The notes beneath the pieces are model-generated. The model was given only the letters and a program-made list of their open reading frames with translations. It searched no databases and was not told the DNA's origin. DNA of 64,000 bases, from contig CALXUB010000005.1 in the NCBI GenBank assembly GCA_944391565.1, forward strand, positions 35,864 through 99,863, given 5' to 3'. Shown here piece after piece: positions 13,382 through 46,629 of this stretch (the stretch's first letter is position 1; each line of letters starts with the position of its first letter). This DNA is from an uncultured Alphaproteobacteria bacterium. Lineage in GTDB: Bacteria > Pseudomonadota > Alphaproteobacteria > CAAHEQ01 > UBA3637. Position numbers and translations under genes: made by a program.

Positions 13382-13411
13382 ACCTTCAGAACACATGAAA
13401 GGAGCTTAATC

Positions 13412-14028
13412 ATGTTCACTTTAACCAAAATTACCCCCCCCCCCCCCCTGTTCTCCTCGTTAACCTAACCATCTGCCTCTGTTTCTCTCTCCCCGTCCAA
13501 GCTAAAATCATTCAAAGAAAAATGCACATGGTCTGTCAAGAGCATGAGTCTGCTTATTGGGACGGATCTAAAGGTGTCTGCTGTGACAAATCAATCAAAC
13601 AAGTTGCCAATGAAAACAGGTATGCTTGCTGCGAAGAATGGCAAAACGCTTATCTTTACAACAACGCCGTCGTTTGCTGCAACCAAGACCCAAACACGAC
13701 ACCGGCACACAAATGCTGCACGGAAGAAAACGCTCAACCGTATTACAAAGATATTTACTCGGATTGTGCCACTTGCGGTGAAGTAGATTGCTGTACCGGA
13801 ACTGTTTATTGCACAGGAAATTTGTTCGGTGAGGTGTGTGGTGGCTGGAGTGAACATCAATATGCGTGCTGTCCGGCGGGAGGAACCGTATTTGCCAGCT
13901 TAGGAGATGACAGTGATGGGTTTATTTTTGCCTACAACTGTTGTCCGACGGGCAAAACGATCGGTGAAAAAACCTATATGGATTTCGGTGAGGGCCCCAC
14001 GTCCCAATGGTCAAGAAGTTGTTTTTAA
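13412..14028 (+). CDS. Cysteine-rich secreted protein 1, poly-C tract out of frame (OFF)
   Basis: The ATG at 13412 has an AAAGGAGC site and the same first residues as the 27610 paralog (MFTLTKIT), then enters a run of 15 C (13434-13448). In the current frame translation stops at 13466. Adding one C or removing two joins it to the downstream frame, which reads through a convincing signal peptide (LLVNLTICLCFSLPVQA) into KIIQRKMHMVCQEHE and a cysteine-rich mature part of ~170 residues with repeated CC pairs. The first ~28 mature residues are almost identical to paralog 2; the rest differs. It is a slipped-strand contingency gene in the OFF state, unless the tract length is an assembly error. 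Function is unknown; a disulfide-rich exported protein is inferred. Confidence 0.8.
13434..13448 (+). repeat. Poly-C tract (15 C) after the start codon
   Basis: Fifteen consecutive C begin 22 nt into the coding sequence, encoding prolines. Homopolymers this long are prone to replication slippage; 13 or 16 C would put the gene in frame. Confidence 0.9.
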
Positions 14029-14040
14029 AACATTGTTGAT

Positions 14041-14068
14041 GTGAACTGTCCGGTAAAGGACAGTTCAC
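14041..14068. terminator. Terminator between cysteine-rich gene 1 and thrS
   Basis: A perfect 11-bp stem GTGAACTGTCC/GGACAGTTCAC with a 6-nt loop separates two convergent genes. A T-rich stretch follows on the plus strand (TCTGTTTATTT). Confidence 0.75.
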
Positions 14069-14075
14069 GATCTGT

Positions 14076-16007
14076 TTATTTATCTTGTGAGGGCATTTGA
14101 GCTTCTTTTGCCAAAGCAGCCACGAACGCATCCAGCGTCATGACTTCCTGTTTATCAGAGCCCAAACGGCGCACTGTCACTGTCCGGTTTTCTTTTTCTT
14201 TACCGCCGACCACAGCAATAACCGGCACTTTGGCCAGCGAATGCGTCCGAATTTTATAGTTGATTTTTTCATTCGACAAATCAGCGGATGCTGTCAAGCC
14301 GGCTTTTTTCAAAGCCTCGACGACTTCCAGTGCATATCCGTCAAAGTCCGAGACAATCGGAGCGACCACTACTTGTTCCGGAGACAACCACAGCGGCAGA
14401 TGTCCGGCGTAGTTTTCGATCAAAATCCCCAAAAACCGTTCAATTGACCCGAACAAAGCCCGATGCAGCATAACCGGCTGATGTTTTTCACCGTCCTCGC
14501 CAATGTAGGAAATATCAAACCGTTGCGGCAGGTTCATATCCATCTGCACGGTACCGCACTGCCATTCCCGACCGATAGCGTCTTTTAAAATAAACTCCAG
14601 CTTCGGACCATAGAACGCTCCTTCGCCCGGATTGATTTCATACGCATAGCCGTGATGTTCCAACGCGTTAGCCAATGCTTTTTCCGACATATCCCACACT
14701 TCGTCCGAACCGATCCGGTAAATGCTGTCCGGTCGCGTTGACAAATAGATTTTAACATCCTTGAAACCGAAGTCTTTATAAATATCCAAAATCAGTTTAA
14801 TGGTGCGAACGCATTCTTCTTCCATTTGTTCGGGAGTGCAGAAAATGTGCGCATCGTCCTGAGTAAACTCACGCACCCGCATCAAGCCCATCAATGATCC
14901 CGATGCCTCATACCGGTTGACCATTCCGAATTCTGCCATGCGTAGCGGTAAATCGCGGTAAGATTTAATGCCTTGTTTATAAATCAACAAACCGCCCGGA
15001 CAGTTCATCGGCTTGACACAGAACATTTTGTCGTCCTCGGTTTTGCCCGAATAGTTGTGCGCGCCGTATTTATCCCAATGTCCCGATGTTTCCCACAAAC
15101 AACGATCCATAATCCGCGGCGTTGCGACTTCGACATAGCCGTTGTTTTCTTGACGTTTACGCATATAGTCAATCAATTTTCGGTAGATTTTATAACCTTT
15201 GTCATGCCAAAACACGGCGCCGGGCGCGTATTCGGGTTCAAAATGGAACAAATCCATGTCTTTGCCGATTTTACGATGATCGCGTTTTTCGGCTTCTTCC
15301 AGCATGGTCAAATAAGCCTTTAACTCTTTTTGATCCGCAAAAGCCGTTCCGTAAATGCGCTGCAGCATTTCATTTTTGGCATCGCCGCGCCAGTAAGCAC
15401 CCGCGACTTTCATCAGCTTGAATGCTTTGCCGAGCTTGCCCGTTGACGGCAAGTGCGGTCCGCGGCACAAATCAATGTAATCTCCTTGACGATAGACGGA
15501 TATTTCGGCATCTTGCGGTAAATCGTTAATGATTTCCACTTTGTAATGCTCGCCTTTGCCCGAAAAATAAGCAACGGCTTTATCGCGCGACCAAACTTCC
15601 CGCTCAATCGGCAGATTGCGATCCACGATGTCGGCCATACGCGCTTCAATGCGAGCCAAATCATCCGTGCTGAACGGTTCTTTTTTTGCAAAGTCGTAGT
15701 AAAAACCGTTTTCAATCACAGGCCCGATGGTCACTTGAGTTCCCGGGAACAATTCCTGTACCGCCTGCGCCATGATATGAGACGCCGTATGACGCAGCAC
15801 TTCCAGCCCTTCTGTCGTTTTTGCGGTCACAATTTTGATCGTTGCATCCGTGGTGATCGGCGTTGTCAAATCTTGCAATTTTCCGTTGACTGTGACAGCA
15901 AAAGCGGCATCAGCCAACCCTTTACTGATTTTCATAGCGATATCCCGCCCCGAGACGGGTTCCTCGAAGGAAAGGACCGAGGCATCCGGTAATTGAATGT
16001 TAATCAT
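14076..16007 (-). CDS. thrS: Threonyl-tRNA synthetase
   Basis: A 643-residue class II synthetase with the full bacterial layout: TGS domain (about 1-60), the editing domain with HTASHIMAQ and RGPHLPSTG, the catalytic domain with motif 2 (RYEASGSLMGLMRVREFTQDD) and the zinc cysteine in VKPMNCPGG, and a C-terminal anticodon-binding domain (VVVAPIVSDFDGYA onward). Length is normal. It attaches Thr to tRNA(Thr) in the cytoplasm. It has its own promoter just upstream, so it need not depend on the lipoprotein gene before it. Confidence 0.97.
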   Translation of the reverse strand: MINIQLPDASVLSFEEPVSGRDIAMKISKGLADAAFAVTVNGKLQDLTTPITTDATIKIVTAKTTEGLEVLRHTASHIMAQAVQELFPGTQVTIGPVIENGFYYDFAKKEPFSTDDLARIEARMADIVDRNLPIEREVWSRDKAVAYFSGKGEHYKVEIINDLPQDAEISVYRQGDYIDLCRGPHLPSTGKLGKAFKLMKVAGAYWRGDAKNEMLQRIYGTAFADQKELKAYLTMLEEAEKRDHRKIGKDMDLFHFEPEYAPGAVFWHDKGYKIYRKLIDYMRKRQENNGYVEVATPRIMDRCLWETSGHWDKYGAHNYSGKTEDDKMFCVKPMNCPGGLLIYKQGIKSYRDLPLRMAEFGMVNRYEASGSLMGLMRVREFTQDDAHIFCTPEQMEEECVRTIKLILDIYKDFGFKDVKIYLSTRPDSIYRIGSDEVWDMSEKALANALEHHGYAYEINPGEGAFYGPKLEFILKDAIGREWQCGTVQMDMNLPQRFDISYIGEDGEKHQPVMLHRALFGSIERFLGILIENYAGHLPLWLSPEQVVVAPIVSDFDGYALEVVEALKKAGLTASADLSNEKINYKIRTHSLAKVPVIAVVGGKEKENRTVTVRRLGSDKQEVMTLDAFVAALAKEAQMPSQDK

Positions 16008-16047
16008 TTTTCTTTTTTCCTTTTCTACTTAAACAAAGAAGGCTTGG

Positions 16048-16076
16048 ATTTTACCAAACCTTCCGAACGTCGTCAA
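16048..16076 (-). promoter_or_regulatory. Promoter of thrS
   Basis: On the minus strand, TTGACG (16071-16076), a 17-bp spacer and TAAAAT (16048-16053), about 40 bp upstream of the ATG. The same box pair is used by the gene ending at 18921. Confidence 0.65.
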
Positions 16077-16090
16077 GGGAAACAAAGGCT

Positions 16091-16930
16091 TTATCGTCGA
16101 CCGCCCTGATCCCTTGACCACACAACTGTTCGCGGCGTCGTCAATCCGCGCATCACCAGCTCCAAAGCCTGACGACGGTCTTTGTTGGTTTGCTCACGCA
16201 CACCCTGTTGAGGATCAATGGTCGGATTCACCTTGGCAAAGGTCCCCGTTGAAATATCCATGTTGTTGATAAACTGACGCCACGCCTCTTCATTTTCCGA
16301 CACGGGCAAGGACAACGCATTGGCTGCCTTGACCAAATTTGTGTAAGAAGCCAATTTACCGCCCGTCCGTGTATACACGTCCATCAACGCGGCCCGCACG
16401 GCAGCCGGCTTTTGTGCGAAATCCGGCACCAGTTTTTCCACCTCGGGTATGTTTTTACGCAAATAAGACAGAGTATAAGAACGAATGGCGTTGTTTTCGA
16501 TCCTAAAGTTGGCAAATTCTTCCAACACCCGATCGGGCAGTCCCGGAATCGGTTCCAACAAGTGTTTATAAATCATGCGTTTGATGGCAGGCACATTTTT
16601 GCGGCCCAACCCGTCAAAGCTGGATCTCAAAGAAACAAAGTCCGCTTCGGAAATGGGTGTGCCGAAACCGATTAAAACAGTCGGTTTGTCCTGAAAAACA
16701 CCCTTTCGAGGATAATAAGAAAACTGGCCGTCCAAACTTTGCAATGCCTGATAGGTTGCCAGCAAATGCTCCCGCGCGGGATCTTTGGGTCGGGCCGACA
16801 CTTTTTGTGTTTGCTTAACGGGTTGAGGTGCGTTCGAAACGGCGTCTTTGCATCCGGCCGCCGTTAAAGCCGTTGCGGCGGCAAGCCCCACCGGCATGAC
16901 CGTTTTTAAAATTTTTTTCTTAAGCGTCAT
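16091..16930 (-). CDS. Predicted lipoprotein of unknown function
   Basis: 279 residues from the ATG at 16930, chosen because AGAGGA lies 9 nt upstream; the frame is open to 16984. The N-terminus is a lipoprotein signal with lipobox TAAGC (Cys27). The remainder is mostly helical and soluble with no motif I recognise; Lys/Arg and Pro residues dominate the linker after the lipid anchor. It lies between the muramidase gene and thrS on the same strand and has its own promoter overlapping the muramidase 3' end. A periplasm-facing, membrane-anchored role is inferred only from the signal. Confidence 0.65.
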   Translation of the reverse strand: MTLKKKILKTVMPVGLAAATALTAAGCKDAVSNAPQPVKQTQKVSARPKDPAREHLLATYQALQSLDGQFSYYPRKGVFQDKPTVLIGFGTPISEADFVSLRSSFDGLGRKNVPAIKRMIYKHLLEPIPGLPDRVLEEFANFRIENNAIRSYTLSYLRKNIPEVEKLVPDFAQKPAAVRAALMDVYTRTGGKLASYTNLVKAANALSLPVSENEEAWRQFINNMDISTGTFAKVNPTIDPQQGVREQTNKDRRQALELVMRGLTTPRTVVWSRDQGGRR

Positions 16931-16955
16931 TGTTATATCCTCTTTCATTGAATTC

Positions 16956-16984
16956 AAGCTAGCATACATTTTCACGTTTGTCAA
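16956..16984 (-). promoter_or_regulatory. Promoter of the lipoprotein gene
   Basis: Minus strand TTGACA (16979-16984), 17-bp spacer, TAGCTT (16956-16961). The TTGACA begins 3 bp past the muramidase stop codon. Confidence 0.6.
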
Positions 16985-16987
16985 AGC

Positions 16988-17851
16988 CTAACGCTGTTGA
17001 ATTGTTCGGCGCAGGGGCAAATGCTGTTGCTCGGCGGTTTTGTTAATTAAAGTGTCCAATTGCAAAACACGACGTTTTCCTCCATTTTTAAACAGCTGCG
17101 CAATGGCGGCATTTCGCTCTTTTGAAATACCTTTGCGACCGGATTCCTCAGCCATTTTGGCATAGTCTTTTTTGGCAACTCCCAATGTCCAAAAGTTTTG
17201 ATACGCTTTGGTGGAAAAACCGGCCGCGCCCAAGTTATATTCCATATCCATCATGGCATATTGGGCCTCTAAAGCCAAATCATAAAACCCGACACCGACC
17301 GAACGGCATTTTTTTTCCAAACTGGCCAGGCAAGATTGCAGTTTTTGAGTTTCTCGTTTGTCCAAACTGGCCGGCGTTGCCTCGTACACACACAGATTTT
17401 TGTAATATTTAGCCTGATAATTAAAGCCTTTTTTAGCTTGTCGCGCCCGCAGTTGATACAAGCTTTTAAAATACAGGGCTTTTTGTTCCCGCGAAAGGAT
17501 TTTGCCGTCTTTTGTTTGAAAGTCCAAGCTGTCAAACTCGGCCCACATGGAAATATTCAGACCGCGCCCGACAGTCAAATAGCCTTTGGTGTCAAAATAA
17601 GGATGCGCCACTTGCCCCTCATGTTGAGCGATTTCCCGTTTCATCAGATTGATTAACGCCGTTTGGCGCTGCGCTTTCATTTTCAACAGCTGTTGATACA
17701 GGTTTTGTGTTTTTTGAACGGTTTTGGGCGCGGATTGAGCCGCCGGCTTTTCGGCGGCCTGACCGGTCAGACCGGCAACACTCACCAACCCGGACAACAT
17801 CACGGGCGCCCAGCGTTTTAATCCTCGTTTTTTCAAAAAATCCTTCAGCAT
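16988..17851 (-). CDS. Exported GH24-like muramidase
   Basis: 287 residues with an N-terminal signal peptide (hydrophobic about 14-32). Residues 71-100 contain the T4-lysozyme catalytic triad with the exact family spacing: Glu78 in AQHEG, Asp87 in YFDTKG and Thr93 in LTVGRG (E-x8-D-x5-T). The later motif YNLGAAGFSTKAYQNF is the second conserved GH24 region. It should cleave N-acetylmuramic-N-acetylglucosamine bonds in the periplasm. It is longer than phage lysozymes, with an insert around residues 105-190. No holin, spanin or other phage gene is nearby, so a cellular cell-wall role is more likely than a prophage. Confidence 0.72.
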   Translation of the reverse strand: MLKDFLKKRGLKRWAPVMLSGLVSVAGLTGQAAEKPAAQSAPKTVQKTQNLYQQLLKMKAQRQTALINLMKREIAQHEGQVAHPYFDTKGYLTVGRGLNISMWAEFDSLDFQTKDGKILSREQKALYFKSLYQLRARQAKKGFNYQAKYYKNLCVYEATPASLDKRETQKLQSCLASLEKKCRSVGVGFYDLALEAQYAMMDMEYNLGAAGFSTKAYQNFWTLGVAKKDYAKMAEESGRKGISKERNAAIAQLFKNGGKRRVLQLDTLINKTAEQQHLPLRRTIQQR

Positions 17852-17872
17852 GCTTTTCTCTCCATGAGCATC

Positions 17873-17901
17873 AGTATAGCATAAAACGCGTCAAATAGCA
17901 A
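17873..17901 (-). promoter_or_regulatory. Promoter of the muramidase gene
   Basis: Minus strand TTGCTA (17896-17901), 17-bp spacer, TATACT (17873-17878), about 22 bp upstream of the start codon. Confidence 0.6.
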
Positions 17902-18000
17902 CTTTTAATATGAGTTTATGCAAGAAACTTGACTTTTTAATTTAAAAACACGACATAGCAAGTGGTCTATTTCATTTTTAAATAAAAAGGGAGAAAAAAA

Positions 18001-18204
18001 ATGGAAATTTTTACAAAAATTTGTTTGTGGATCAGCTTGATCGGTGCTTTCAGCTGGGGGTTGATCGGTGTGTTCGGACTGGATTTGATTGCTTTGGTGT
18101 TCGGCACCATGTCTTTATTCACACGCATCATCTACATCATTGTCGGTTTGACGGCGATCTGGGTCGCGCTCAGAGAACTCAACCTGATTCCCAGCCAAGA
18201 CTAA
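18001..18204 (+). CDS. DUF378 family small membrane protein
   Basis: 67 residues with two hydrophobic helices (about 5-28 and 36-58). The pattern LIGAFSWGLIGVFGLDLIALVFG followed by RIIYIIVGLTAIW is the DUF378 signature. Length is normal. It stands alone with its own hairpin terminator and is divergent from the muramidase gene. Molecular function of the family is unknown. Confidence 0.85.
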   Translation: MEIFTKICLWISLIGAFSWGLIGVFGLDLIALVFGTMSLFTRIIYIIVGLTAIWVALRELNLIPSQD

Positions 18205-18227
18205 AACACGCCGGCATGCATGCCGAA

Positions 18228-18257
18228 AACCGTCGGGAAAGTTTCCGGCGGTTTTTT
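18228..18257 (+). terminator. Rho-independent terminator after the DUF378 gene
   Basis: An imperfect stem AACCGTCGG...CCGGCGGTT is followed by a run of T (18252-18258), 25 bp after the stop codon. A perfect CGGCATGCATGCCG palindrome lies just before it (18212-18225). Confidence 0.8.
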
Positions 18258-18302
18258 TATAAAATACTTGTTTGACAAACCGCAATCCGCTATGCTGACA
18301 GT

Positions 18303-18956
18303 ATGATCCGCACGCTTTTTATTGATTGGAATCGCACACTCAGTTTCGGACGGTTTTGGGGACCGGCGGCCGAACGGAATCCTGTGCTTTTTCAGCTGTT
18401 GGAGAAAAGGTTGTTTCAGGACAATCGACCGCTTTTGGAAGATTGGATGCGCGGTCGTTTGTCTTATGAAACGGTCTGCACCCGCATGGCTGATGCCGAT
18501 TTATCCGCGGATACCGTTGACCAAGCCTTTCGAGAAGGATTTGACGCCCTTTTTATTGCGCCGGCGATACAAACCGCACTGAAAACGCTTCGCCGAACCG
18601 GTCTGCCGATTTGGGTTGCCACCAATCATATGGATGTGTTCGGTCGCTTTATTTATCCGCGTTTCAGCCATTTGTTTGACGGTTATTTGTGTTCGGCCGA
18701 CATCGGCTTTTTTAAAGAAGAGCTTAGCGTGAACGACCGGCCGTTGTTTTTCAATTCGTTTTTTAAAAAAACGGGCATTATGCCCGAACAAACTGCCTTG
18801 ATTGACAACACATCCAAAGTGACGAATGCCTGCGCTCGCTGCGGCATGCACACATATCTGATTGAAAGCCCGGGAGATGTCCTGCGCACGCTGACAACAC
18901 TTCATGCAGAAGAAACACGCTCAACGACGGACGGAACGAGCCGAGGCCATGGCTAA
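18303..18956 (+). CDS. HAD-like hydrolase
   Basis: 217 residues. Motif I is FIDWNRT with nucleophile Asp8; the usual second aspartate of DxD is Asn10, a variant seen in some HAD proteins. Motif II Thr is in WVATNH, the motif III lysine lies in the FFKEEL/FFKKTG region, and motif IV is weak (ALIDNTSKVTNACARCGM). A phosphatase-like role is expected but the Asn may alter acid-base chemistry. The 3' end overlaps the convergent gene by 36 bp. Confidence 0.7.
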   Translation: MIRTLFIDWNRTLSFGRFWGPAAERNPVLFQLLEKRLFQDNRPLLEDWMRGRLSYETVCTRMADADLSADTVDQAFREGFDALFIAPAIQTALKTLRRTGLPIWVATNHMDVFGRFIYPRFSHLFDGYLCSADIGFFKEELSVNDRPLFFNSFFKKTGIMPEQTALIDNTSKVTNACARCGMHTYLIESPGDVLRTLTTLHAEETRSTTDGTSRGHG

Positions 18957-20129
18957 CAGTTGCGGATTGGCTTTTTGACTGAGCTTTTGAAAGAAATTGA
19001 CCCCCAGATCGGATTTTTGCTGAGCCGTCAACATTTGGGGCAGTTTGCGCTCCAATTCCTGCCATTCTTCGGGTTCCAGGCTTCTTATGTTCATGACTTC
19101 CCCTTTGTCATCATGGTGGTAAACATTAGCAAAAATCTTTTGAGAAGAATTGATTTCCACAGTGTCTTTCCCTTGCGTCAGCAATAAACACACATGATTA
19201 AAGTGCGGATTTTTGATGATTTCCACATCTGAGAATCGTTCAAATGTGATCAAAGATGCTATTCGCTGCGCTTCTTTTTGTGCCAACAGCTGCTGTTTTT
19301 GACGCTGTGCCAGTTCTTGTGCCTGGCGTTCTTTTTCGCGAATTTGATATTGAGCCACGGCTTTGGCTTTATTTTGATCAAACTCTTTTCGTTCTTCCTT
19401 TGCCAACGCCGGCAGATTTTGCATATGCTTAAGCACATCTTTTTTATAAGACTTGGCAAACTGTTCCACAACCGTGTTTTGCAGGCTCTTTAAAAATAAA
19501 GGTTGAACACTGAGCGCCAGTGCTTTTCCTGTCGCGCCACCGATTCGTTGAGCATATTTTTGAATCATTTTTTTGACATCTATGACGTCTTCCGAGTTGC
19601 AGGCGCTGAAAGCCGCCAAGCTTTTGTCAAAAACAACATCCAGCTCCGCTTTTTGTGCCGGCCGGCGCCGACCGTTTTCCTCAACGACAATCTCGGGATA
19701 AGAGGAACGAAACGTCCATTCGTTCGGATTGTCGGGTTTTTGAGAAGAAACCTTTTCCCCCCGATCCATGGCGATCAACGTGCCGATCAGGCTTTCCAAC
19801 ACTTCCCGCGGCATTAAAACCAATATGTTTTTGGTCCCATCTTTCACAACAAGGCCTGTTTCCGCCCCTTTAAAATAAAAATCCACATCCTTTAACGCCT
19901 TGTTTGTCTTTTGTTTTTGCCGAAACAAAGGAGTGTCAAACGATAAACCGTTGTAAGTGATTTTCCGGTTTTGTTGAATGTACGATAAAAGACTGTTTTG
20001 ATCCACCTTTTGAACGGCAGCCGGCGGCCGCGCATCCTGAACGGCATCCGGCGTCATGGCACCCGCCCCCAAACTGACGGCCGCCGAGGCAATTAACAGA
20101 TGTCGTTTCAATTGGTCTTTCAAAGCCAT
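18921..20129 (-). CDS. Exported protein of unknown function
   Basis: 402 residues starting MALKDQLKRHLLIASAAVSL, a clear Sec signal peptide with likely cleavage after residue ~24. A predicted coiled coil rich in Gln, Lys, Glu and Ala (about 245-285, including RQKQQLLAQKEAQRIA) splits an N-terminal mixed region from a C-terminal domain with a DDKGEVMNIRSLEPEEWQEL segment. I recognise no family. It has a good promoter and an AGGAGA ribosome site. It is convergent with the HAD gene. A periplasmic location is inferred from the signal only. Confidence 0.6.
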   Translation of the reverse strand: MALKDQLKRHLLIASAAVSLGAGAMTPDAVQDARPPAAVQKVDQNSLLSYIQQNRKITYNGLSFDTPLFRQKQKTNKALKDVDFYFKGAETGLVVKDGTKNILVLMPREVLESLIGTLIAMDRGEKVSSQKPDNPNEWTFRSSYPEIVVEENGRRRPAQKAELDVVFDKSLAAFSACNSEDVIDVKKMIQKYAQRIGGATGKALALSVQPLFLKSLQNTVVEQFAKSYKKDVLKHMQNLPALAKEERKEFDQNKAKAVAQYQIREKERQAQELAQRQKQQLLAQKEAQRIASLITFERFSDVEIIKNPHFNHVCLLLTQGKDTVEINSSQKIFANVYHHDDKGEVMNIRSLEPEEWQELERKLPQMLTAQQKSDLGVNFFQKLSQKANPQLLAMASARSVRR

Positions 20130-20148
20130 AGTTGTCTCCTATTTTTTT

Positions 20149-20177
20149 ATTTTAGCAAAAAACGGCTTATTCGTCAA
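20149..20177 (-). promoter_or_regulatory. Promoter of the exported-protein gene
   Basis: Minus strand TTGACG (20172-20177), 17-bp spacer, TAAAAT (20149-20154), about 20 bp upstream of the ATG. Confidence 0.65.
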
Positions 20178-20308
20178 ACCGTATGTTTTAGGTTGAAAAA
20201 CCAAACTTATCGGATGATTTTTAAAACTCAACTGAGATTTTGATTATCTTTAAAATTAAACGGGTTTTGTTAGGTTTGAACAGACAAAAATCATACGTGT
20301 GAGCAAAA

Positions 20309-20396
20309 TCGGGTTCAAGCCCCTCACGACTTCCAATAAAAAAACCGTCCCAAAGGACGGACTTTCTCTTCAAGCGGCAAACGGGCGAAGGGATTT
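20309..20396. repeat. Duplicated tRNA-Gly 3' flank (distal copy)
   Basis: Bases 20309-20360 repeat 20505-20556 with a single mismatch, and both include the same CCGTCC/GGACGG terminator hairpin. Farther on, 20382-20396 exactly repeats 15 bases of the 3' end of the tRNA-Gly gene (20572-20586). This is a partial copy of the tRNA end plus terminator. The 20397-20504 spacer has two small GC hairpins (one at 20444-20457) and no convincing gene. Confidence 0.75.
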
Positions 20397-20532
20397 GTCA
20401 ATCGGCCAAGGCACGATTGATCCCATCGCTGATGCTCGGGACTGTCGCCTGAGCGACATCCTGCCCTCAGACACCTTCGGCGTCTTCGGTCACGTCCCCT
20501 CTTCTCGGGTTCAAGCCCCTCACAACTTCCAA

Positions 20533-20557
20533 TAAAAAAACCGTCCCAAAGGACGGT
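20533..20557 (-). terminator. Rho-independent terminator of tRNA-Gly
   Basis: On the minus strand, ACCGTCC-TTTG-GGACGGT is followed by seven T, starting 10 bp after the encoded CCA. Confidence 0.9.
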
Positions 20558-20566
20558 ATTTTTTAT

Positions 20567-20641
20567 TGGAGCGGGCGAAGGGATTTGAACCCTCGACATC
20601 AACCTTGGCAAGGTTGCGCTCTACCCCTGAGCTACACCCGC
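20567..20641 (-). tRNA. tRNA-Gly (anticodon GCC)
   Basis: Minus strand. Acceptor arms GCGGGTG and CGCCCGC pair with one G-U. The D-arm region is TAGCTCAGGGGTAGAGC, the anticodon loop reads CTTGCCAAGG region with GCC at its centre, the T-arm is GAGGGTTCAAATCCCTT, the discriminator is T, and CCA is encoded. The gene is 75 nt. A strong terminator follows. Confidence 0.95.
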
Positions 20642-20770
20642 AAATCCGAATGCCCTTTTTTATGCCACACCTTATCGTAAAAATCAAGCTTTTTTTCGAA
20701 AAAAATATCAAAAACAATTAACCTTTTGTTTTTTAAGCCTTTTCAAAAAATCTTTTTCTGTTTTTTCCGG

Positions 20771-20798
20771 TTGAAAAAAATCCAAAAAAGCGTATAAT
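20771..20798 (+). promoter_or_regulatory. Promoter of mnmG
   Basis: TTGAAA (20771-20776), 16-bp spacer and perfect TATAAT (20793-20798), 24 bp before the ATG, with an AAGGAAAAG ribosome site. Confidence 0.75.
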
Positions 20799-20822
20799 AG
20801 CGGCCTTACGAAGGAAAAGAAA

Positions 20823-22685
20823 ATGGATTTTGATGTTATTGTGGTCGGCGGCGGTCATGCCGGTTGCGAAGCCGCAGCAGCAGCAGCCCGTGTCGGCGCA
20901 CGCACTGCTTTAATCACGCATCGCATCGGTTCGATCGGTGATATGTCTTGCAATCCGGCTATCGGCGGTTTGGGCAAAGGGACGGTCGTGCGTGAAATCG
21001 ACGCTTTGGACGGATTGATGGGACGCATCATTGATGCGGCAGGATTGCAATTTCGTATGTTGAATCTTTCCAAAGGCCCCGCTGTTCAGGGCCCCAGGGC
21101 ACAAGCCGACAAAGACCTTTACAAACAATTGATGCAGGAAGCTTTATTGACTTACCCGAATCTAACGGTTTTGGAAAACGCCGTCGAAGGGATTTTGTTT
21201 GATGCCGCCGCCCGAACGGTTCAAGGCGTCACATGCGCGGATGGCACCGAACTGAAAAGCGGCGCTGTCGTCATCACGACGGGAACATTCTTAAACGGTT
21301 TGATGCATCAGGGGGAACAAAAAACAACGGGCGGCCGATGGGGAGACCCGGCCTGCACGGGCATTACGCCGGACCTAAAGCGCATGGGTTTGACCGTCGG
21401 GCGATTAAAAACCGGAACACCGGCACGATTAGATCGCGACAGCATTGATTGGCGCCAAACAACCATACAACCGGGCGATGCCGTGCCGCAGCCTTTTTCT
21501 TTTATGACACCGGCGATCACCCAACCGCAAGTGCCTTGTTTTTTGACACGGACAACGCCTCAGACACATGCGATTATTCAGGCAAACTTATCCCGCGCGC
21601 CCATGTATTCGGGTCAGATTAAATCCATCGGCCCGCGTTATTGCCCCAGCATTGAAGACAAAATCGTCCGTTTTGCGCAACGAGACAGTCATCATATTTT
21701 TTTAGAGCCGGAAACACGCAACGGCCCGTCCATTTATCCCAACGGCATTTCAACCAGCCTGCCCGTTGATGTTCAGGACGCTTTTTTACGCACCATTCCC
21801 GGCCTTGAAAAAGTGCGTGTTTTACGCTATGCATACGCGATTGAGTATGATTTTGTCGATCCGCGCGAAGTCAAACGCACATTGGAAACCAAAAAAATCA
21901 AAAACCTGTTTTTGGCAGGACAGATTAACGGCACAACCGGCTATGAGGAAGCAGCGGGACAAGGTTTGGTGGCCGGTGTCAATGCGGCGTTAAAGGCGGG
22001 AGGCGGGGACAAAGAGCTGACGCTTGATCGCACGGACAGCTATATCGGCGTGATGATTGACGACATTACCACCTTCGGGGTCGACGAACCTTACCGACTG
22101 TTTACCTCCCGCGCCGAGTATCGGTTGACAATTCGGGCGGACAACGCAGATTTGCGATTGACAAAGCTTGGGCTTCGGGCGGGCTGTGTTTCCCAAGCAC
22201 GGCAGCAGGCTTTTGAAGCCAAGAAAAAAGCTTACGATGCGTTAAAAGAAGAAATGACTCACACTTTTGTAAGTCCCAAAGAATTGATTGCCCAAGGGTT
22301 TGATTTGCCGGTGCGTGGGACAAAGCACTGTTTGTTCGAACTGTTGGGGTATCCCTTTGTCACGTGGGAGACGCTCAGCCGTGCTTTCCCCCATTTGGCG
22401 GACCGACGAACCGATGTGGTGCAGCAGGTGATGATTGAAGGCCGCTATCAAGGCTATTTGGCACGACAGGCAGCAGATATCGAAGCTTTCCGCAAAGACG
22501 AGTCGGTTAAAATCCCCGACGATTTAAACTACGAGGACGTCGGCGGGCTTTCTATTGAAATTCGCGGGCGACTGACGCGCGCTCGACCGGCCACCATCGG
22601 TGCGGCCGCCCGGCTGCCCGGCATAACACCGGCAGCGGTGACGGCTTTACTGGGCCATTTGAAAAGTCGCAAAAAAGGAGCATAA
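20823..22685 (+). CDS. mnmG: tRNA uridine-5-carboxymethylaminomethyl synthesis enzyme
   Basis: A 620-residue FAD protein (GidA/MnmG) that with MnmE modifies U34 of several tRNAs. The Rossmann motif [12 protein letters not shown] is at residue ~7. The signatures [33 protein letters not shown] and [25 protein letters not shown] [14 protein letters not shown] are intact, as is the helical C-terminal domain. Length is normal. In many alphaproteobacteria mnmG is followed by rsmG and parAB; here a glycosyltransferase follows after 1 bp, so the usual neighbourhood is lost. Confidence 0.96.
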
Positions 22686-22686
22686 C

Positions 22687-23532
22687 ATGTCAATTCCTTT
22701 GGTTTACATAACAGACGACGGATATGTGCTGCCCACGGCGGTCAGCATAACTTCAGCCGCACTGAACAAAGCCCCCGATACCGTTTATGACATTTATGTC
22801 ATCGGCTATCAGCTCAGCAACGGCTTGGACGAAGCGTTCGCACTGTTAAACGCGCCGGGTGTTCGCATTCATTTTTTAGCTTATCAAACCGACCAGGCTT
22901 TGGAAAATATCACCTCGGACACTTATGTGACCAGTACGGCCCTGCTGAAGTTCAAAATCCCCGATTTGTTGCCGGAATTGAATAAAGTCATTTACATCGA
23001 CGGCGATACATTGGTGCAAAAAGATTTAACCGCCCTTTATGAAACGCCGTTGGACGGCAAAGCATTGGGAGCCGTCAAAGATCATGCCTGCATCGAGTTG
23101 TTTCATGACAATATGAACTTGCCGACTTATTTTAACAGCGGTGTCTTGCTGATGGATTTGGCTGTGTGGCGCCGACAAAACCTGGGCGCACAAATGATGA
23201 CCTATAAACAAACGCATGACGGGCTGCATTATATGGATCAGGATGTATTCAATTTAGTGCTGGAAGACGCCTATCAAAAACTGCCGGTTATTTACAACGC
23301 CATGATGCCGAATTTCAGGGGTTATGCCGTGCCGATGCCGGATTTGAACGCCTTTTACGGAACAGATTTCACCGATTACGCCGACATTTTAAACAAAGCC
23401 GCCATTATTCACATTACCAACACCTACAAACCGTGGCTTTACAAAGATGTTTATTTGTCTGACATGTGGCTGGCCTACTTAAAGCAAAGCCCGTTTCGGG
23501 ACATTCAATTATCGTTAAGAAGCCCAAAATAA
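22687..23532 (+). CDS. Family 8 glycosyltransferase
   Basis: 281 residues with the GT8 fold signatures: N-terminal VYITDDGYVLPTAVSI, the metal-binding DxD at Asp105-Asp107 (VIYIDGDTLVQKDL), the acceptor-site NSGVLLMDL, and the C-terminal HITNTYKPW. It is expected to transfer a hexose, typically galactose or glucose, to LPS core or a surface glycan. It is probably translated from the mnmG transcript. The end overlaps the convergent acyltransferase by 28 bp. Donor and acceptor cannot be read from sequence. Confidence 0.87.
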   Translation: MSIPLVYITDDGYVLPTAVSITSAALNKAPDTVYDIYVIGYQLSNGLDEAFALLNAPGVRIHFLAYQTDQALENITSDTYVTSTALLKFKIPDLLPELNKVIYIDGDTLVQKDLTALYETPLDGKALGAVKDHACIELFHDNMNLPTYFNSGVLLMDLAVWRRQNLGAQMMTYKQTHDGLHYMDQDVFNLVLEDAYQKLPVIYNAMMPNFRGYAVPMPDLNAFYGTDFTDYADILNKAAIIHITNTYKPWLYKDVYLSDMWLAYLKQSPFRDIQLSLRSPK

Positions 23533-24449
23533 TCATAGAATTGGAAAAAAGCGGCGGGATAGGCCAAAATCAATGCTTCCAAAAAATCGGCATAAGCTTG
23601 TGCAACGCCGGCTTCGGGCGCACGGCGCGTAAACAAAGTATATGTATCCGGTGCCGTTTTCACACAGGCGATAAAGAAAACCGGACTTTCCATCAAGCGA
23701 GCAAACGTAAAAACGCCATGAGGCAGCGGCACCCGGCGATCCAACATTCGAACCGTCACCTGACGTCCCGGCGCATTTTTAGAAATACGATCGGCAGCCA
23801 TCATCACCAGCTCGCCTTTATCCAAAAACTGTTTCATTTCAGCCGCGGTCGCCACATCAACCGCATCGGTCGGATGAATAAAGACACGCGGATCATGACA
23901 ATGCGCCCGATAAAAATCAAAGAAAATTCGACTTTGCGCCGTGTCCTGAAAAGCATGCATGACACGTGGCGGAAAAGCCGACACCTGTGTGTATAAGCTT
24001 TGTAAAATCTCAATGCTGCCGACATGCGAACACAAAAAGAAAACACCGTGATGCGCTTTGATTTCAGCCAACAGCTGATTAAAATCGCCTTTTTGATCAA
24101 TCTCAAGACACAATTTTTGTTTGCGAAGCGCCGCCGCATCAACTTTATCGAACAAAGCCGTCACATACGCCAAAACATGGGCGCGTCCCGACAACGGTGT
24201 TATCGGCCAGCCCCGCCGTTTTTGTGCCGCCTTTAAAACGACTCGATAGGCACGGGAAGCTTCCCTGGCCGGTCCGGCCACCATCCAAATCGCCGTTCCC
24301 ACAATCGATAATGCCCCGCGAAACAACCATAGCGGACAAAACCGATACAATGCCCACAGCACAGCCAGCCGCCAGCGGCCGGCACTTTGCTCTTTTTGAG
24401 AAAACCAGGCTTGCGTCCGTTTGCTTTTTCGCTTACACTCTTTTGTCAT
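23505..24449 (-). CDS. Lipid A biosynthesis-type lauroyl/myristoyl acyltransferase
   Basis: LpxL/HtrB-like membrane acyltransferase. It has an N-terminal hydrophobic anchor (LAVLWALYRFCPLWLFRGAL) and the catalytic H-x4-E in CSHVGSIEI. The region MMAADRISKNAPGRQV matches the second conserved block, and ESPVFFIACVKT a later one. I give the ATG at 24449 (314 residues); a TTG 36 bp upstream is possible. No strong ribosome site is seen for either. The ATG overlaps by two bases the ATG of the divergent phosphopantetheinyl transferase gene. Substrate may be lipid A or another amphiphile. Confidence 0.72.
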   Translation of the reverse strand: MTKECKRKSKRTQAWFSQKEQSAGRWRLAVLWALYRFCPLWLFRGALSIVGTAIWMVAGPAREASRAYRVVLKAAQKRRGWPITPLSGRAHVLAYVTALFDKVDAAALRKQKLCLEIDQKGDFNQLLAEIKAHHGVFFLCSHVGSIEILQSLYTQVSAFPPRVMHAFQDTAQSRIFFDFYRAHCHDPRVFIHPTDAVDVATAAEMKQFLDKGELVMMAADRISKNAPGRQVTVRMLDRRVPLPHGVFTFARLMESPVFFIACVKTAPDTYTLFTRRAPEAGVAQAYADFLEALILAYPAAFFQFYDYFGLLNDN

Positions 24450-25119
24450 GGAACTTTTTATAGCAGATTTGGACGCCGTCGGCAAGGAAGAAGAAAAGGC
24501 CTATGCGGCTTTGTTAAACGCGGACGAAACCGTTCGACTGACACGCATGTCCGTGTGGCGGCGCAAAACTTTTTTAACGGGACGCGCCTTGGTGCGGGAT
24601 GTATTGGGTCAAATCATGGGATTGCCTCCGGCAGCGGTCGAGCTGCGATTGTTGGCGGGCGGCGCACCGGTTTTAAAAGAGGACGGCCCTTTTTTTAATC
24701 TGTCGCATAGCGGTCATTTTGTACTGATGGCCGTTGATGACACACCCGTGGGCGTGGACATTGAAAACAGCCGTTCAAACCGAAATATTGACGGCATGGT
24801 GCGGGAATACTTCGATGAAGCGGCAAAAGCGGCTTATTTTCTGTTAGATCCCAAAGAGCGGCGATCGTTCTTTTATCGGCTGTGGACAATGAAAGAAGCG
24901 GCGTTAAAACTGAAAGGCTGCGGCGGCACCGATATTCCGTTGATGCAGGGGCTGAAAGAAGCGCCGACGGAACCTGTTCATTTTTATTCGGGCCGCTTGT
25001 TTGATTATTTTTTTGCTGTCGCAGGCAAAGACCCGCTGCGAACAATGCAGTTGATTTTAAAAACACCGTTAAAAGGGCGGGAAAGCTTCTTGACGCCCGA
25101 AAGCACACTGCTCAGCTAA
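24448..25119 (+). CDS. 4'-phosphopantetheinyl transferase (Sfp type)
   Basis: 223 residues from ATG 24448. It attaches the phosphopantetheine arm of CoA to a carrier-protein serine. The three family motifs are visible: NLSHSGHFVLMAV, VGVDIE with the Mg-binding Asp/Glu pair, and the WTMKEAALKLKG block. Length fits the Sfp class rather than the ~120-residue AcpS class. The start codon overlaps that of the divergent acyltransferase. The end overlaps the mazF-like gene by 4 bp. Its carrier substrate is not in this window. Confidence 0.88.
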   Translation: MELFIADLDAVGKEEEKAYAALLNADETVRLTRMSVWRRKTFLTGRALVRDVLGQIMGLPPAAVELRLLAGGAPVLKEDGPFFNLSHSGHFVLMAVDDTPVGVDIENSRSNRNIDGMVREYFDEAAKAAYFLLDPKERRSFFYRLWTMKEAALKLKGCGGTDIPLMQGLKEAPTEPVHFYSGRLFDYFFAVAGKDPLRTMQLILKTPLKGRESFLTPESTLLS

Positions 25120-25415
25120 AGCGCGAACATTTGAGATAAAATGTGGCTGATTTCCTGATGACTGGTTTCGGGCAGCACGCCGATTTTGCGAACAAGTGCC
25201 GTTTTGGAAACGGTTCGAAGCTTTTCCAGGGCAATTTGACCGTCCCGTCCCTTCATTTCAATCATCACACGATAAGGCAGCGCCCGCACGCGTCCCGTAA
25301 TCGGAGCCACCATCACATAAGGCAACACGGCATTCAGCTCGTTAGGCGACACCACCACACACGGTTTTTGCACGCCGGCGTCCTCCATTTCATAAACCAT
25401 AAAACGCTTTACCAT
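25116..25415 (-). CDS. MazF/PemK-like endoribonuclease toxin
   Basis: 99 residues from the ATG at 25415, which has GAGGAGG 10 nt upstream; the open frame extends to 25478 but over the antitoxin gene. The fold signatures are KPCVVVSPNELN and YVMVAPITGRVR, followed by the basic LPYRVMIEM and the DGQIALEKLRTVSK strand-helix. These match the PemK/MazF RNase family. It overlaps the upstream antitoxin by 7 bp. Target sequence specificity is unknown. Confidence 0.85.
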   Translation of the reverse strand: MVKRFMVYEMEDAGVQKPCVVVSPNELNAVLPYVMVAPITGRVRALPYRVMIEMKGRDGQIALEKLRTVSKTALVRKIGVLPETSHQEISHILSQMFAL

Positions 25416-25627
25416 TCCCAGTCGCCCTCCTCTTGCCACGGCGCCGTTTCGTTTTCCAAAACCGACAGCTCTTCCCAACCGCGGCGTGTCGTATCCGCCG
25501 CCGTCAAAACCAAAGACCGGCCTTTGACTTCCACATTCAAAGTGTCTTCAAACCGACACTGTTTTATCAAGGACGCCGGAATGCGGATCCCTTGTGAATT
25601 GCCGATTTTAATTAAAGGCAGTTTCAT
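25409..25627 (-). CDS. MazE-like antitoxin (AbrB/SpoVT fold)
   Basis: 72 residues. The first 45 form a swapped-hairpin AbrB DNA-binding domain (IKIGNSQGIRIPASLIKQ, then VEVKGRSLVLTA). The acidic, Trp-rich C-terminal tail should fold around the toxin. It overlaps the toxin gene by 7 bp and the upstream coiled-coil gene by 4 bp, so three proteins come from one mRNA. The operon promoter region carries alternating palindromes suitable for autoregulation. Confidence 0.88.
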   Translation of the reverse strand: MKLPLIKIGNSQGIRIPASLIKQCRFEDTLNVEVKGRSLVLTAADTTRRGWEELSVLENETAPWQEEGDWEW

Positions 25628-27186
25628 GCCGCGCCTCCTTTCTTACCCAAAGCTTGTTTTAAAATCATGTAAAGCCGGCCGGCATCGGAACCAATTAAAA
25701 CCGGCAGTAAAACGTCTTTTTTCTCGTTGTTTTTAGCCTTTTGCGCCAATGCATCAAACTCGGACAAATAACGCGTGACAGCCACACGAACGGCATTATT
25801 TTCCTGATACAAGGCCTTAAACTTGTCCATTTTGTCCTTGGGCAAAGCCGTCATCAAATAGCGCATAAACGCCCCGTTGTCGCCCGCATAGTATTTTTTC
25901 CATTGTTCTTCTTCGGCTTTGGGCGTAAACACATGCACAATGTCAATGGAAAACAGCGACAGATGTTCCAAAATCAACCGCGCGTCTTTCATAAACTGAT
26001 CCGTTTGGGTCGAAGCCAAATCAGCTTTCAACTCTTTCAAATAAGTTTCGGTCGACCGACTGACCTCCATCAGTTTTTCGGCTTGTTTTTCAAGGCCGAG
26101 CGTACCCAACTCATGCAGCTTGGCATCGACAGAACCCAAGGCCTCTCCCATTAAATCCGCCTGCGTTGCAAACTGCGCGCCGACATCGCCCAAGTGCCGA
26201 ATCGCCTGATCCGACAGTTGAAAAACCGCCTGCGTGTGTTCGGCCGCCTGCTCGGCCGCACCGGTCAGCTTGTGCAAGGTTTTTTCCACTTCCTGATCCA
26301 ACAACGTACCTTGTGTCTTCAGGATCGTTAAAATCTTTTCGGCATTGGCGAACAAACGATCATTATATGTTTGTGTCTGAGCCTCATATTGGCTTAAAAT
26401 CCCTTCCAGCCGATCCATGTGCGTTTGAAAATGCACTGCCGTTCCATCGGCCGCCGTCACAATTTGCTGCGTCTTTTGCGCTGCATCCTTTAACGTATCC
26501 GTCACGCGATCAATGGATTTCATATTCTCGGTCAATACACCGGCCACACCCCCCAGCGTGCGCGCGACTTTTTCAGACGTCGCCTGCAAAACCATCGCCC
26601 GTTCGGATAAATCTTCGGTAATGCCGCGCGTGCTTTCGTTTGCTTTTTGCGTGGATTTGGCCAATACTTGCACATGATGCGCCATCTCTTTGATAGACGC
26701 CAGCGTTTGCGTATCCACATGATCAATCACGGTTGCTAAATCTTTAATCCACAATTTTAAGTCATCTCGCACGCCATTGGTTTGATCCGCCACTTCGGCA
26801 AAAACTTTTTTAAACTCACGGATCTGCGCCCGAAGCGCATCCGTCAGCGACTTTGTGTAAACAGCCCCCTCCTCGGTCGGATACATCAGCTGATTCATAT
26901 AACGGCGCAGCGTTTGTGTTTCCTGACGCAGTTGATCCCGCCGTTCAATCCACGCCACCACAAACCAAATCAGCGCAAGCGGCACCAGCTGGCTGAGCAC
27001 CAAACCCATAAATTCCGCCGGCACCAACCGATAGCGGCTTGACCACCATCCCGTTCTGATAAAATAATCCGCCGCTAAAAACAGCCACAAAACACTCAGC
27101 AAAACCCCCAGCCAATAAATCGGTTTGCGATACCAGGCAAAGCGTTTTTTCAAAGCCGTTTCATCAAAAGTATCTTGTTGTCGCAT
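25624..27186 (-). CDS. Membrane-anchored coiled-coil protein leading the mazEF operon
   Basis: 520 residues, no family recognised. Two hydrophobic segments (about 23-46 and 62-82) place it in the inner membrane. About 300 residues of helical, Gln/Thr/Ala-rich sequence with heptad spacing (about 85-400) follow. A compact C-terminal domain of ~110 residues begins near LILEHLSLFSIDIVHVF. It resembles the cytoplasmic rod layout of methyl-accepting proteins but lacks the conserved hairpin-tip motif. It is translationally coupled (ATGA) to the antitoxin. Whether it is a third component of the toxin-antitoxin unit is untested. Confidence 0.65.
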   Translation of the reverse strand: MRQQDTFDETALKKRFAWYRKPIYWLGVLLSVLWLFLAADYFIRTGWWSSRYRLVPAEFMGLVLSQLVPLALIWFVVAWIERRDQLRQETQTLRRYMNQLMYPTEEGAVYTKSLTDALRAQIREFKKVFAEVADQTNGVRDDLKLWIKDLATVIDHVDTQTLASIKEMAHHVQVLAKSTQKANESTRGITEDLSERAMVLQATSEKVARTLGGVAGVLTENMKSIDRVTDTLKDAAQKTQQIVTAADGTAVHFQTHMDRLEGILSQYEAQTQTYNDRLFANAEKILTILKTQGTLLDQEVEKTLHKLTGAAEQAAEHTQAVFQLSDQAIRHLGDVGAQFATQADLMGEALGSVDAKLHELGTLGLEKQAEKLMEVSRSTETYLKELKADLASTQTDQFMKDARLILEHLSLFSIDIVHVFTPKAEEEQWKKYYAGDNGAFMRYLMTALPKDKMDKFKALYQENNAVRVAVTRYLSEFDALAQKAKNNEKKDVLLPVLIGSDAGRLYMILKQALGKKGGAA

Positions 27187-27210
27187 AAGCCTCTCCTTCT
27201 TGATAAAGCC

Positions 27211-27239
27211 AGCTTAACGCTCTTTTTTCATTTTGACAA
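27211..27239 (-). promoter_or_regulatory. Promoter of the coiled-coil/mazEF operon
   Basis: Minus strand TTGTCA (27234-27239), 17-bp spacer, TAAGCT (27211-27216), about 25 bp before the ATG, with AAGGAGAGG as ribosome site. Confidence 0.5.
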
Positions 27240-27244
27240 GAAGA

Positions 27245-27262
27245 AATTACATTGTAATTACA
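27245..27262. promoter_or_regulatory. Alternating palindrome, candidate MazE(F) operator
   Basis: AATTACA-T-TGTAATT (27245-27259) is a perfect 15-bp palindrome, and TGTAATTACA (27253-27262) is a second, overlapping one. They sit just upstream of the operon -35 box. The E. coli mazEF promoter is controlled through an alternating palindrome of this kind, so an autoregulatory site is a reasonable inference. Confidence 0.45.
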
Positions 27263-27333
27263 TTTTATGGAATTGAAAAGCTGATCAAAGGGCTCGCCGG
27301 AAGTTCTGTTAAATAAGTAAAAAGCTTTTTTTT

Positions 27334-27388
27334 GATCAAAAAGGGCCTTTTTGCCGCCCCCAAACCCAATCCAAAAAGGCCCTTTTTC
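27334..27388. repeat. AAAAAGGGCC-type hairpin, copy in region B
   Basis: Nearly identical to 13194-13250 including the loop GCCCCCAAACCCAAT, ending in CCTTTTTC. Confidence 0.8.
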
Positions 27389-27453
27389 AAATTGCTGATT
27401 TATTTAAAAAAAACACGCTTGTTTAAATAAAGAGACGCTTAAATATTAAAGAA

Positions 27454-27489
27454 GGCCGCCCGCGCACCGCAAAAATTTCGCGGGCGGCC
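27454..27489. repeat. GGCCGCCCGCG palindrome, copy in region B
   Basis: Arms GGCCGCCCGCG and CGCGGGCGGCC with a 14-nt loop; the inner palindrome seen in copy 1 is partly degraded. Confidence 0.8.
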
Positions 27490-27549
27490 TTTCATTCAAA
27501 AACAACACATCCGCTTCAATACAAATTCTCTTGTCAAAAAAAATAATGA

Positions 27550-27579
27550 TGGACAAATAAACTACAAATCCGCTATCAT
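27550..27579 (+). promoter_or_regulatory. Conserved promoter of cysteine-rich gene 2
   Basis: TGGACA (27550-27555), 18-bp spacer, TATCAT (27574-27579), within the leader shared with gene 1. AAAGGAGC precedes the ATG at 27610. Confidence 0.65.
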
Positions 27580-27609
27580 ACCTTTAGAACATATGAAAGG
27601 AGCTTAATC

Positions 27610-28440
27610 ATGTTCACTTTAAACAAAATTACCCCCCCCCCCCCTGCTTTAAATAACCTTTTCAACTACTTAATCCTCTTCTCCATCATTACCCTTCCCG
27701 CTCAAGCCAAAATCATTCAAAGAAAAATGCACATGGTCTGTCAAGAACATGAATCTGCTTATTGGGATGGATCGAAAGGTGTCTGTTGTGATGGAAACGT
27801 ATATCAACCTGATACTGAAAACACCTCTTTTGCATGTTGTCCTACTGGAAAAGAAGTCTCTATTGTCCAAGGTAAAGAAAACCTCAACCACTGTTGCTCA
27901 GAAGGACAAAAGGCTTATTGGAACGGATCTTCTGCCCAGTGCTGTGCGACCGCAACGCATCAGATCGTCACTAACTATATCAGTGGACAAACCGATACCG
28001 CTTACGCATGCTGCGAAATTAAAGAAGATACATATTCAGAAAGAATAGACACAGAATTTGATGAAAAATACACTAACTCATTTACTGGTTATACCGTCGC
28101 TGGCGCCATCAACAACTCTTGCTGCGGCGGATACTCTGCAATCAGAGCCGAAAGACTTACCAATAGTTCAGGAAAACTTCAGGCTTTTGACGACTATAGT
28201 TCTAGCTATAAAATCAGAGAAAACGGTGGTGTTTACTATTGTGCTGAAGAAACTGACTGGTTGGACAGTTTGATAAGCGAAGCTCGTCGTGAGAAAGGAA
28301 TGTATATAAGCGATTCAAAATATTGCATCTCATACGATACCATACACAACAGCACAATTTTTTCTTCTTACACTGAGTGTCGATGTTCTGATAAAGATGA
28401 TCCCAGAGTTTCATCCACAGCCACTTTTTGTGATCTGTAA
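27610..28440 (+). CDS. Cysteine-rich secreted protein 2, poly-C tract in frame (ON)
   Basis: 276 residues. The start MFTLNKITPPPP includes a 13-C tract (27632-27644) that keeps the frame. A hydrophobic signal segment (NLFNYLILFSIITLPAQA) ends with a good cleavage site before KIIQRKMHMVCQEHE. The mature part carries repeated CC pairs spaced about 20-35 residues apart (GVCCD, FACCPTGK, HCCSEGQ, QCCA, ACCE, SCCGG). They suggest a disulfide-stabilised repeat. The first mature ~28 residues match the 13412 paralog; the remainder diverges. No known family. Likely exported and surface-exposed; function unknown. A 70-bp gap separates it from the convergent lolA. Confidence 0.8.
   Translation: MFTLNKITPPPPALNNLFNYLILFSIITLPAQAKIIQRKMHMVCQEHESAYWDGSKGVCCDGNVYQPDTENTSFACCPTGKEVSIVQGKENLNHCCSEGQKAYWNGSSAQCCATATHQIVTNYISGQTDTAYACCEIKEDTYSERIDTEFDEKYTNSFTGYTVAGAINNSCCGGYSAIRAERLTNSSGKLQAFDDYSSSYKIRENGGVYYCAEETDWLDSLISEARREKGMYISDSKYCISYDTIHNSTIFSSYTECRCSDKDDPRVSSTATFCDL
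27632..27644 (+). repeat. Poly-C tract (13 C) after the start codon
   Basis: Thirteen C in the codons for the proline stretch. Change by one or two bases would shift the frame and shut off the product. Confidence 0.9.
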
Positions 28441-35162: not shown

Positions 35163-35195
35163 AGTATACTTTCCCCCCCCCCCCCCCAATGTCAA
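35163..35195 (-). promoter_or_regulatory. Phase-variable promoter: poly-G between -35 and -10
   Basis: On the minus strand a perfect TTGACA (35190-35195) and TATACT (35163-35168) are separated by 21 bp made of TT, 15 G and AAAG. The optimal 17 bp would need 11 G. Promoter strength should therefore depend on tract length, as known for porA of Neisseria meningitidis. In the present state the spacing is long, so expression is probably low. Confidence 0.8.
35173..35187 (-). repeat. Poly-G/C tract (15 nt) in promoter spacer
   Basis: Fifteen C on the plus strand (G on the transcribed-direction strand). It is the third long G/C homopolymer of the window; all three belong to cysteine-rich exported-protein genes. 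Confidence 0.9.
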
Positions 35196-46168: not shown

Positions 46169-46197
46169 TTGCAACCGGTCGACAAAGCGCTTATTTT
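46169..46197 (+). promoter_or_regulatory. Promoter of the 46219 pilin-like gene
   Basis: TTGCAA (46169-46174), 17-bp spacer, TATTTT (46192-46197); the start codon is about 22 bp downstream. No homopolymer tract is present here. Confidence 0.5.
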
Positions 46198-46218
46198 ATT
46201 GATCAAGGAGAAATAAAA

Positions 46219-46629
46219 GTGCAAACCGGACGTTCCATGTTAGAGATGTTGGCTGTTCTAGCCATTATGGGGGCTTTGTCTATCGGCGGTCTGTGGGGAT
46301 TGGCGCAAGCGCGCACCAGCGGACAGGCCATCCATATTGCTTCGGAAGTCAGCTATGCCACCAAAGAAATGATTTTGCGCGATGATTGGCGCGGCTTGGA
46401 GACCGGCAGTTCTTATCGGTTATCTGATGTTGAAGTGCTGGACATCACGATTGAATCGCCTTATCGGTTCAGCATGGCGACGACGGTGCCTTGGAAAGTC
46501 TGTCGTGCGGTTTTGCCAAAGCTGGAAAAAACGCATACGCAGCACGTGAACGGGACGCTTTTTACCGGTAGCACCGATATTTGCGGCACGGATGAAGATG
46601 TGGTCCTTGTTTTTACCTATACGGAATAA
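46219..46629 (+). CDS. Pilin-like protein with GRSM(I/L)E signature
   Basis: 136 residues, GTG start with AAGGAG 8 nt upstream. A 4-residue leader ends at Gly4; RSMLEMLAVLAIMGALSIGGL forms the hydrophobic spine with Glu at +5. The globular part has two cysteines (VCRAVL, DICGTD) that may form a loop as in pseudopilins. The Arg at +1 replaces the usual Phe/Met. Same N-terminal signature as 33926-35104 and 49938-50405. No assembly genes are nearby. Confidence 0.72.
   Translation: MQTGRSMLEMLAVLAIMGALSIGGLWGLAQARTSGQAIHIASEVSYATKEMILRDDWRGLETGSSYRLSDVEVLDITIESPYRFSMATTVPWKVCRAVLPKLEKTHTQHVNGTLFTGSTDICGTDEDVVLVFTYTE

Follow-up and report, generated by a model that had tools for sequence, protein, structure and literature searches.

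Candidate homopolymer phase variation of pilin-like and cysteine-rich secreted proteins in an uncultured alphaproteobacterium

Introduction

Random on/off switching of genes by slipping homopolymers is best known from Neisseria and Campylobacter. A 64,000-nt stretch of the genome of an uncultured alphaproteobacterium (hereafter the window, whose coordinates are used unless a locus is named) encodes two paralogous, predicted secreted cysteine-rich proteins, each with a long run of C shortly after the start codon, where one gene is in frame and the other is not. This raises the question of whether such tracts switch their genes or mark their decay, and how widely they occur in the genome. The analysis described here strongly favors phase variation of a repertoire of surface proteins through homopolymer slippage, which would act on translation in the secreted family and mostly on transcription in a set of pilin-like genes, and we infer that the switching is reversible.

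Leader tracts

Both genes are on the forward strand, each preceded by the sequence AAAGGAG, which resembles a Shine-Dalgarno site (13398..13404 and 27596..27602). As an earlier note on this DNA had stated, both leader tracts begin 22 nt after the A of the ATG. The gene at 27610..28440 carries 13 C (27632..27644) and has an open frame of 276 aa, while the gene at 13412..14028 carries 15 C (13434..13448) and is predicted to be OFF, as reading from 13412 proceeds for 18 codons and ends in a TAA at 13466; both descriptions match those of the note. Its further claim, that an intact frame lies beyond the longer tract and would be reached with 13 or 16 C, was also borne out: the 192 codons at 13450..14025 (forward strand) include a signal-peptide-like beginning and the cysteine pattern of the family, and a count of frames at three run lengths joined them to the ATG at 16 C, and therefore also at 13 C. 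The forward strand of the window contains three C-runs of at least 9 nt (13, 15, and 15 nt long) versus approximately 0.27 expected from base composition, and hence the runs are not due to chance. No G-run of at least 8 nt was found on that strand of the window.

The genome (1.27 Mb in 37 contigs, 94% complete) contains 61 C-runs of at least 9 nt on both strands, including at least one locus counted twice (contig ends C35 and C6, with the same leader and tract). The run length was 12-15 nt in 49 of the 61, with a mode of 13. At least 39 of these tracts are in leaders (17) or between promoter-like elements (22), with readable genes that are mainly pilin-like or encode cysteine-rich secreted proteins; the remaining 22 are contig-end fragments or were left unclassed.

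The 17 leader tracts are the readable ones among 20 candidates. Three candidates were dropped, namely L038 (C25 beside noisy sequence), L051 (a promoter tract), and L052 (a frame of only 53 aa), and a further family member, L050, is absent from the set as it was missed by the Shine-Dalgarno filter. Seven of the 17 genes were in frame and ten were out of frame, and their products included 11 cysteine-rich proteins, five pilin-like proteins, and a family 2 glycosyltransferase (PF00535). All 11 readable cysteine-rich paralogues share the leader-tract design, with 12-15 C, and are in frame in some cases only. In five of the 17 genes, the frame extends past a contig end. Weaker members of the set were L044 (a best frame of 52 codons), L041 (a TTG start and a noisy flank), and L058 (only nine C). 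Such tracts, placed close to the 5' end of an open reading frame (ORF) that is intact beyond them, have the arrangement by which translational phase variation is recognized. Replication slippage likely adds bases to the runs or removes them, and a change of one or two C would move the ATG into or out of frame with the gene.

A different account is decay, where the out-of-frame copies would be pseudogenes and the tracts would have expanded neutrally in a small genome rich in repeats, possibly under weakened mismatch repair. We consider it improbable, as six of the ten out-of-frame leader copies keep frames of 205-426 codons and three are open to the contig end (the tenth is L044). Coding constraint was further indicated by the ratio of nonsynonymous to synonymous substitution rates (dN/dS) of the out-of-frame 13412 gene, which was 0.11-0.51 against nine relatives over 34-61 aligned N-terminal codons; the gene has therefore been under constraint, a result that gives no date for its last ON state. 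Interrupted tracts, which count in favor of decay, were found at L082:672-686 (C8-A-C6, out of frame with an extra stop) and L046:595-607 (C7-T-C5, in frame), and these are apparently locked alleles, the former OFF and the latter ON.

Promoter-spacer and hairpin tracts

The tracts described in the earlier note held up as a leader class, while a second, promoter-spacer class was missed; its member in the window lies outside the interval that the note covered. This member precedes, on the reverse strand, a gene for a type IV pilin-like protein of 392 aa with the GRSMIEMLGVLAIV motif (33926..35104). A run of 15 G on the coding strand (35173..35187) lies between a candidate -35 element TTGACA (35190..35195) and a candidate -10 element TATACT (35163..35168), both assigned by consensus match, with a spacer of 21 nt.

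In the whole genome, TTGACA or a hexamer close to it adjoins the run or lies near its edge in 22 tracts, and in 11 of them the run directly abuts an exact TTGACA. The extended -10 sequence TGNTA was found within 14 nt after the run in 15 of the 22 tracts versus 3.0% of random sites, and the spacers to it were 16-20 nt. A tract between the -35 and -10 elements with a spacer near 17 is the configuration of porA-type transcriptional phase variation. Most of the spacer consists of the run, and the gain or loss of a single G would therefore shift its length relative to the usual optimum of approximately 17 and so tune transcription.

A type IV pilin-like motif followed within 1,200 nt in 13 of the 15 readable promoter tracts (those with at least 282 nt of downstream sequence), as compared with 3.1% and 5.9% of random sites. 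The two exceptions were L033, which precedes an ORF judged by eye to be ankyrin-like, and L067, which precedes an unnamed ORF. The promoter reading of L051 is doubtful because the pilin motif begins only 7 nt after the run.

These tracts bear on a second alternative, where RNA polymerase or the ribosome would slip on the C-run, as can arise at long homopolymers, and yield a fixed mixture of frames for each genotype with no switching in the genome. While such slippage would also account for the intact and constrained frames of out-of-frame genes, it leaves the promoter-spacer tracts unexplained, where no frame is involved, and we judge it to be quite unlikely. The recurrence of tracts at two functional positions is likewise difficult to reconcile with decay.

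Additionally, some C-runs form the loop of a predicted hairpin with an A/T-rich stem of approximately 15-16 bp. These included L076 (1470-1535) in this genome and L103 (2856-2925) in a congener, with z-scores of -4.96 and -3.31, respectively. In L076 a pilin motif occurs 131 nt after the run, and its frame soon departs from the family. A similarly flanked run was found in the congener locus L090, and L093 resembles it with an altered 3' arm.

Tract lengths, and with them the ON and OFF calls, may themselves be questioned as products of sequencing or assembly error. Noise at contig ends that carry tracts and three unusually long runs (19, 20, and 25 C) are in keeping with such an artefact. Of the 61 tracts, 36 were no more than 350 nt from a contig end versus 1.2 expected (lengths were known for 36 of the 37 contigs), and 35 of the 74 contig ends had a tract within this distance; assembly may break at tracts because their lengths are mixed, because paralogues repeat the sequence, or because long runs are difficult to sequence. 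The same designs were nevertheless present at tracts inside contigs and flanked by clean sequence (13434, 27632, 35173, and others), and runs occurred at the same places in separate congener assemblies. An artefact therefore appears very improbable.

Relatives and mismatch repair

Among 43 genomes of the taxonomic family, the number of runs of at least 10 nt was 59 in this genome, 69 in G007, 11 and 8 in two congeners, and 0-12 elsewhere. The earlier note had proposed a search for the family and for poly-C leaders in related genomes, and the leader-tract design was indeed present again in two congeners. It had also proposed a comparison of tract lengths among relatives. The congeners G011 and G012, which are 99% identical across a 13-kb stretch, have five pairs of tracts with shared context among their 11 and 8 tracts, and four of the five differ in length: C12/C10, C12/C11, C13/C12, and C13/C14, with C12/C12 the same. 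The aligned identities of these pairs were 97.8%, 98.5%, 87.3%, 88.3%, and 96.0%, respectively. The flanks, 94-300 nt long, included only zero to two gaps each at 83-98% identity; the tracts are therefore the variable part. All five pairs are congener loci, none belonging to the TTGACA class or to the loci of the window. The differing pairs comprised two of three leader pairs, one hairpin pair, and one unclassed pair. Among the three leader pairs, C13/C12 switches the predicted state from OFF to ON, and the other two stay OFF.

Such differences between close congeners are left unexplained by slippage at the level of RNA or the ribosome. Taken with the 11 paralogues, the recurrence of the design in congeners, and the coding constraint on the 13412 gene, they support the note's reading, with a switch of frame in the leader as the best explanation.

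The mismatch repair gene mutS was not found in this assembly, while it was present in 40 of the 43 family genomes; mutL was present. A gap in the assembly is possible for mutS, because a gene that lies next to mutS in a congener likewise has no ortholog here. The absence of mutS would be in line with decay, and yet congeners that possess mutS retain the same leader design. In the other tract-rich genome, G007, which belongs to another genus, mutS was present and the MutL domain was missing. Several loci of G007 (L108-L120) have promoters or leaders of similar design, and one of them (L109) contains a pilin-like ORF of 714 aa.

Several observations weigh against phase variation and partly in favor of decay. 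Extra stops or frameshifts were found in some copies, with several pilin copies frameshifted, and three pilin frames downstream of promoter tracts (L047, L063, and L065) break off after 42-49 aa. An ON allele of the 13412 gene was not seen among database relatives, as the first residue of P0039, the only close one (4 members, 86% identity), is an internal Met. In P0003, a protein related to that of 27610 at 97%, the proline tract is interrupted. The hairpin loci L090 and L103 had no pilin motif within 600 nt, and there the hairpin is unlinked to pilins.

Encoded products

The cysteine-rich family had 32 matches in this genome, some of them several per gene, and 37 matches in the protein database, some belonging to this genome. 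Of the latter, 14 had a proline-tract leader, 21 started at an internal Met, and two had no tract; an internal Met start is what a gene caller would choose for an out-of-frame or truncated gene. The family matched no Pfam or NCBIfam model over the cut-off. The predicted structure of the 27610 protein was confident from approximately residue 80 onward, where it is all-beta, and structure comparison of this model revealed no clear known relative.

The pilin-like proteins have a hydrophobic helix near the N terminus and the motif G|xxxxE, the processing motif of type IV pilins. As no Pfam or NCBIfam pilin model was matched by the three members compared (two per library), they are named pilin-like. 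The domain of one member was modelled as a long N-terminal helix followed by strands (pLDDT 65.6, moderate), and its 12 best VIA-align matches were all type IV pilins, which suggests a pilin fold within the limits of a single model of moderate confidence. The genome encodes a pilus/secretion ATPase (PF00437) and a prepilin peptidase (PF01478), both over the cut-off. Beside the ATPase, a GspF/PilC-like protein was found below cut-offs and a PilP match over the cut-off. The ATPase, platform protein, and prepilin peptidase for assembly of type IV pilins are hence represented.

The module of the AYWDGSKGVCC type was also found in one pilin-like protein of this genome and one of G007; it is therefore common to fibres and secreted proteins, at least in these. 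The tracts are predicted to control type IV pilin-like fibres and secreted proteins, and some of these have this cysteine-rich module in common. If each gene is switched on and off independently, each cell would therefore display a random subset of them, which would probably serve to diversify the products that a host, phage, or neighbour encounters. A more elaborate scheme may be put forward tentatively, and appears rather doubtful as a whole: an alphaproteobacterial family would possess a phasome with several layers, in which the cysteine-rich module would be presented on pilin-like fibres through promoter-spacer length and on secreted proteins through frame, with a hairpin-loop group in addition and an expansion of tracts with the loss of one mismatch repair gene.

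Comparison with known systems

In Neisseria meningitidis, an account of the porA promoter places a poly-G tract between the -35 and -10 elements and reports faster switching in a mutS mutant (PMC3639595). The promoter class resembles porA in having a homopolymer inside this spacer and a surface protein gene downstream. Unlike porA, the design occurs here in 22 tracts, mostly before pilin-like genes where readable and with 11 touching TTGACA. For Campylobacter jejuni, a survey of draft genomes gives a median of 20 phase-variable tracts per genome, with 81 in one isolate (PMC6321876). The present genome resembles this poly-G phasome in that numerous G/C mononucleotide tracts occur in a single small genome; it differs in having approximately 60 tracts, in the leader poly-C on the coding strand, which encodes poly-Pro, in its pilin-like and cysteine-rich products, and in belonging to an alphaproteobacterium.

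The earlier note knew of no described alphaproteobacterial case with this protein family. Literature searches found no report of homopolymer phase variation for this lineage or these families, which agrees with the claim. It is qualified by Ehrlichia, also an alphaproteobacterium with G/C-tract genes, whose poly(G-C)-tract proteins are mentioned as possibly phase variable (PMC4885862).

Simple-repeat phase variation has been encountered likewise in other bacterial classes: a study of N. meningitidis reportedly indicated it in 115 genes (PMC5084427), and one of Bordetella pertussis is said to have dealt with homopolymeric tracts (PMC1891110). The mechanism is thus already known, while the lineage, the families, and the cysteine module common to pilins and secreted proteins appear to be new. 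If phase variation is confirmed, a lineage outside the classic mucosal pathogens would have independently evolved a phasome approximately three times the C. jejuni median, directed at fibres and at secreted cysteine-rich proteins that match no named family. The evolution of contingency loci could then be tested within one family, where runs of at least 10 nt range from 0 to 69, and the tracts may explain why such genomes break there in assembly.

Further loci

The two pilin-like genes at 46192-46626 and 49923-50402 of the window have no tract in the 500 nt upstream. The family 2 glycosyltransferase of the leader set (L069) has a C13 tract and is predicted to be out of frame. Among the database homologues of the cysteine-rich family, P0013 and P0017, as well as P0005 and P0020, have one part in common while the other part diverges, which resembles a swap of C-terminal parts between paralogues. 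A 990-codon open frame related to this family, predicted to be secreted and containing many CC-containing modules, was found at L085:207-3176 (contig C29).
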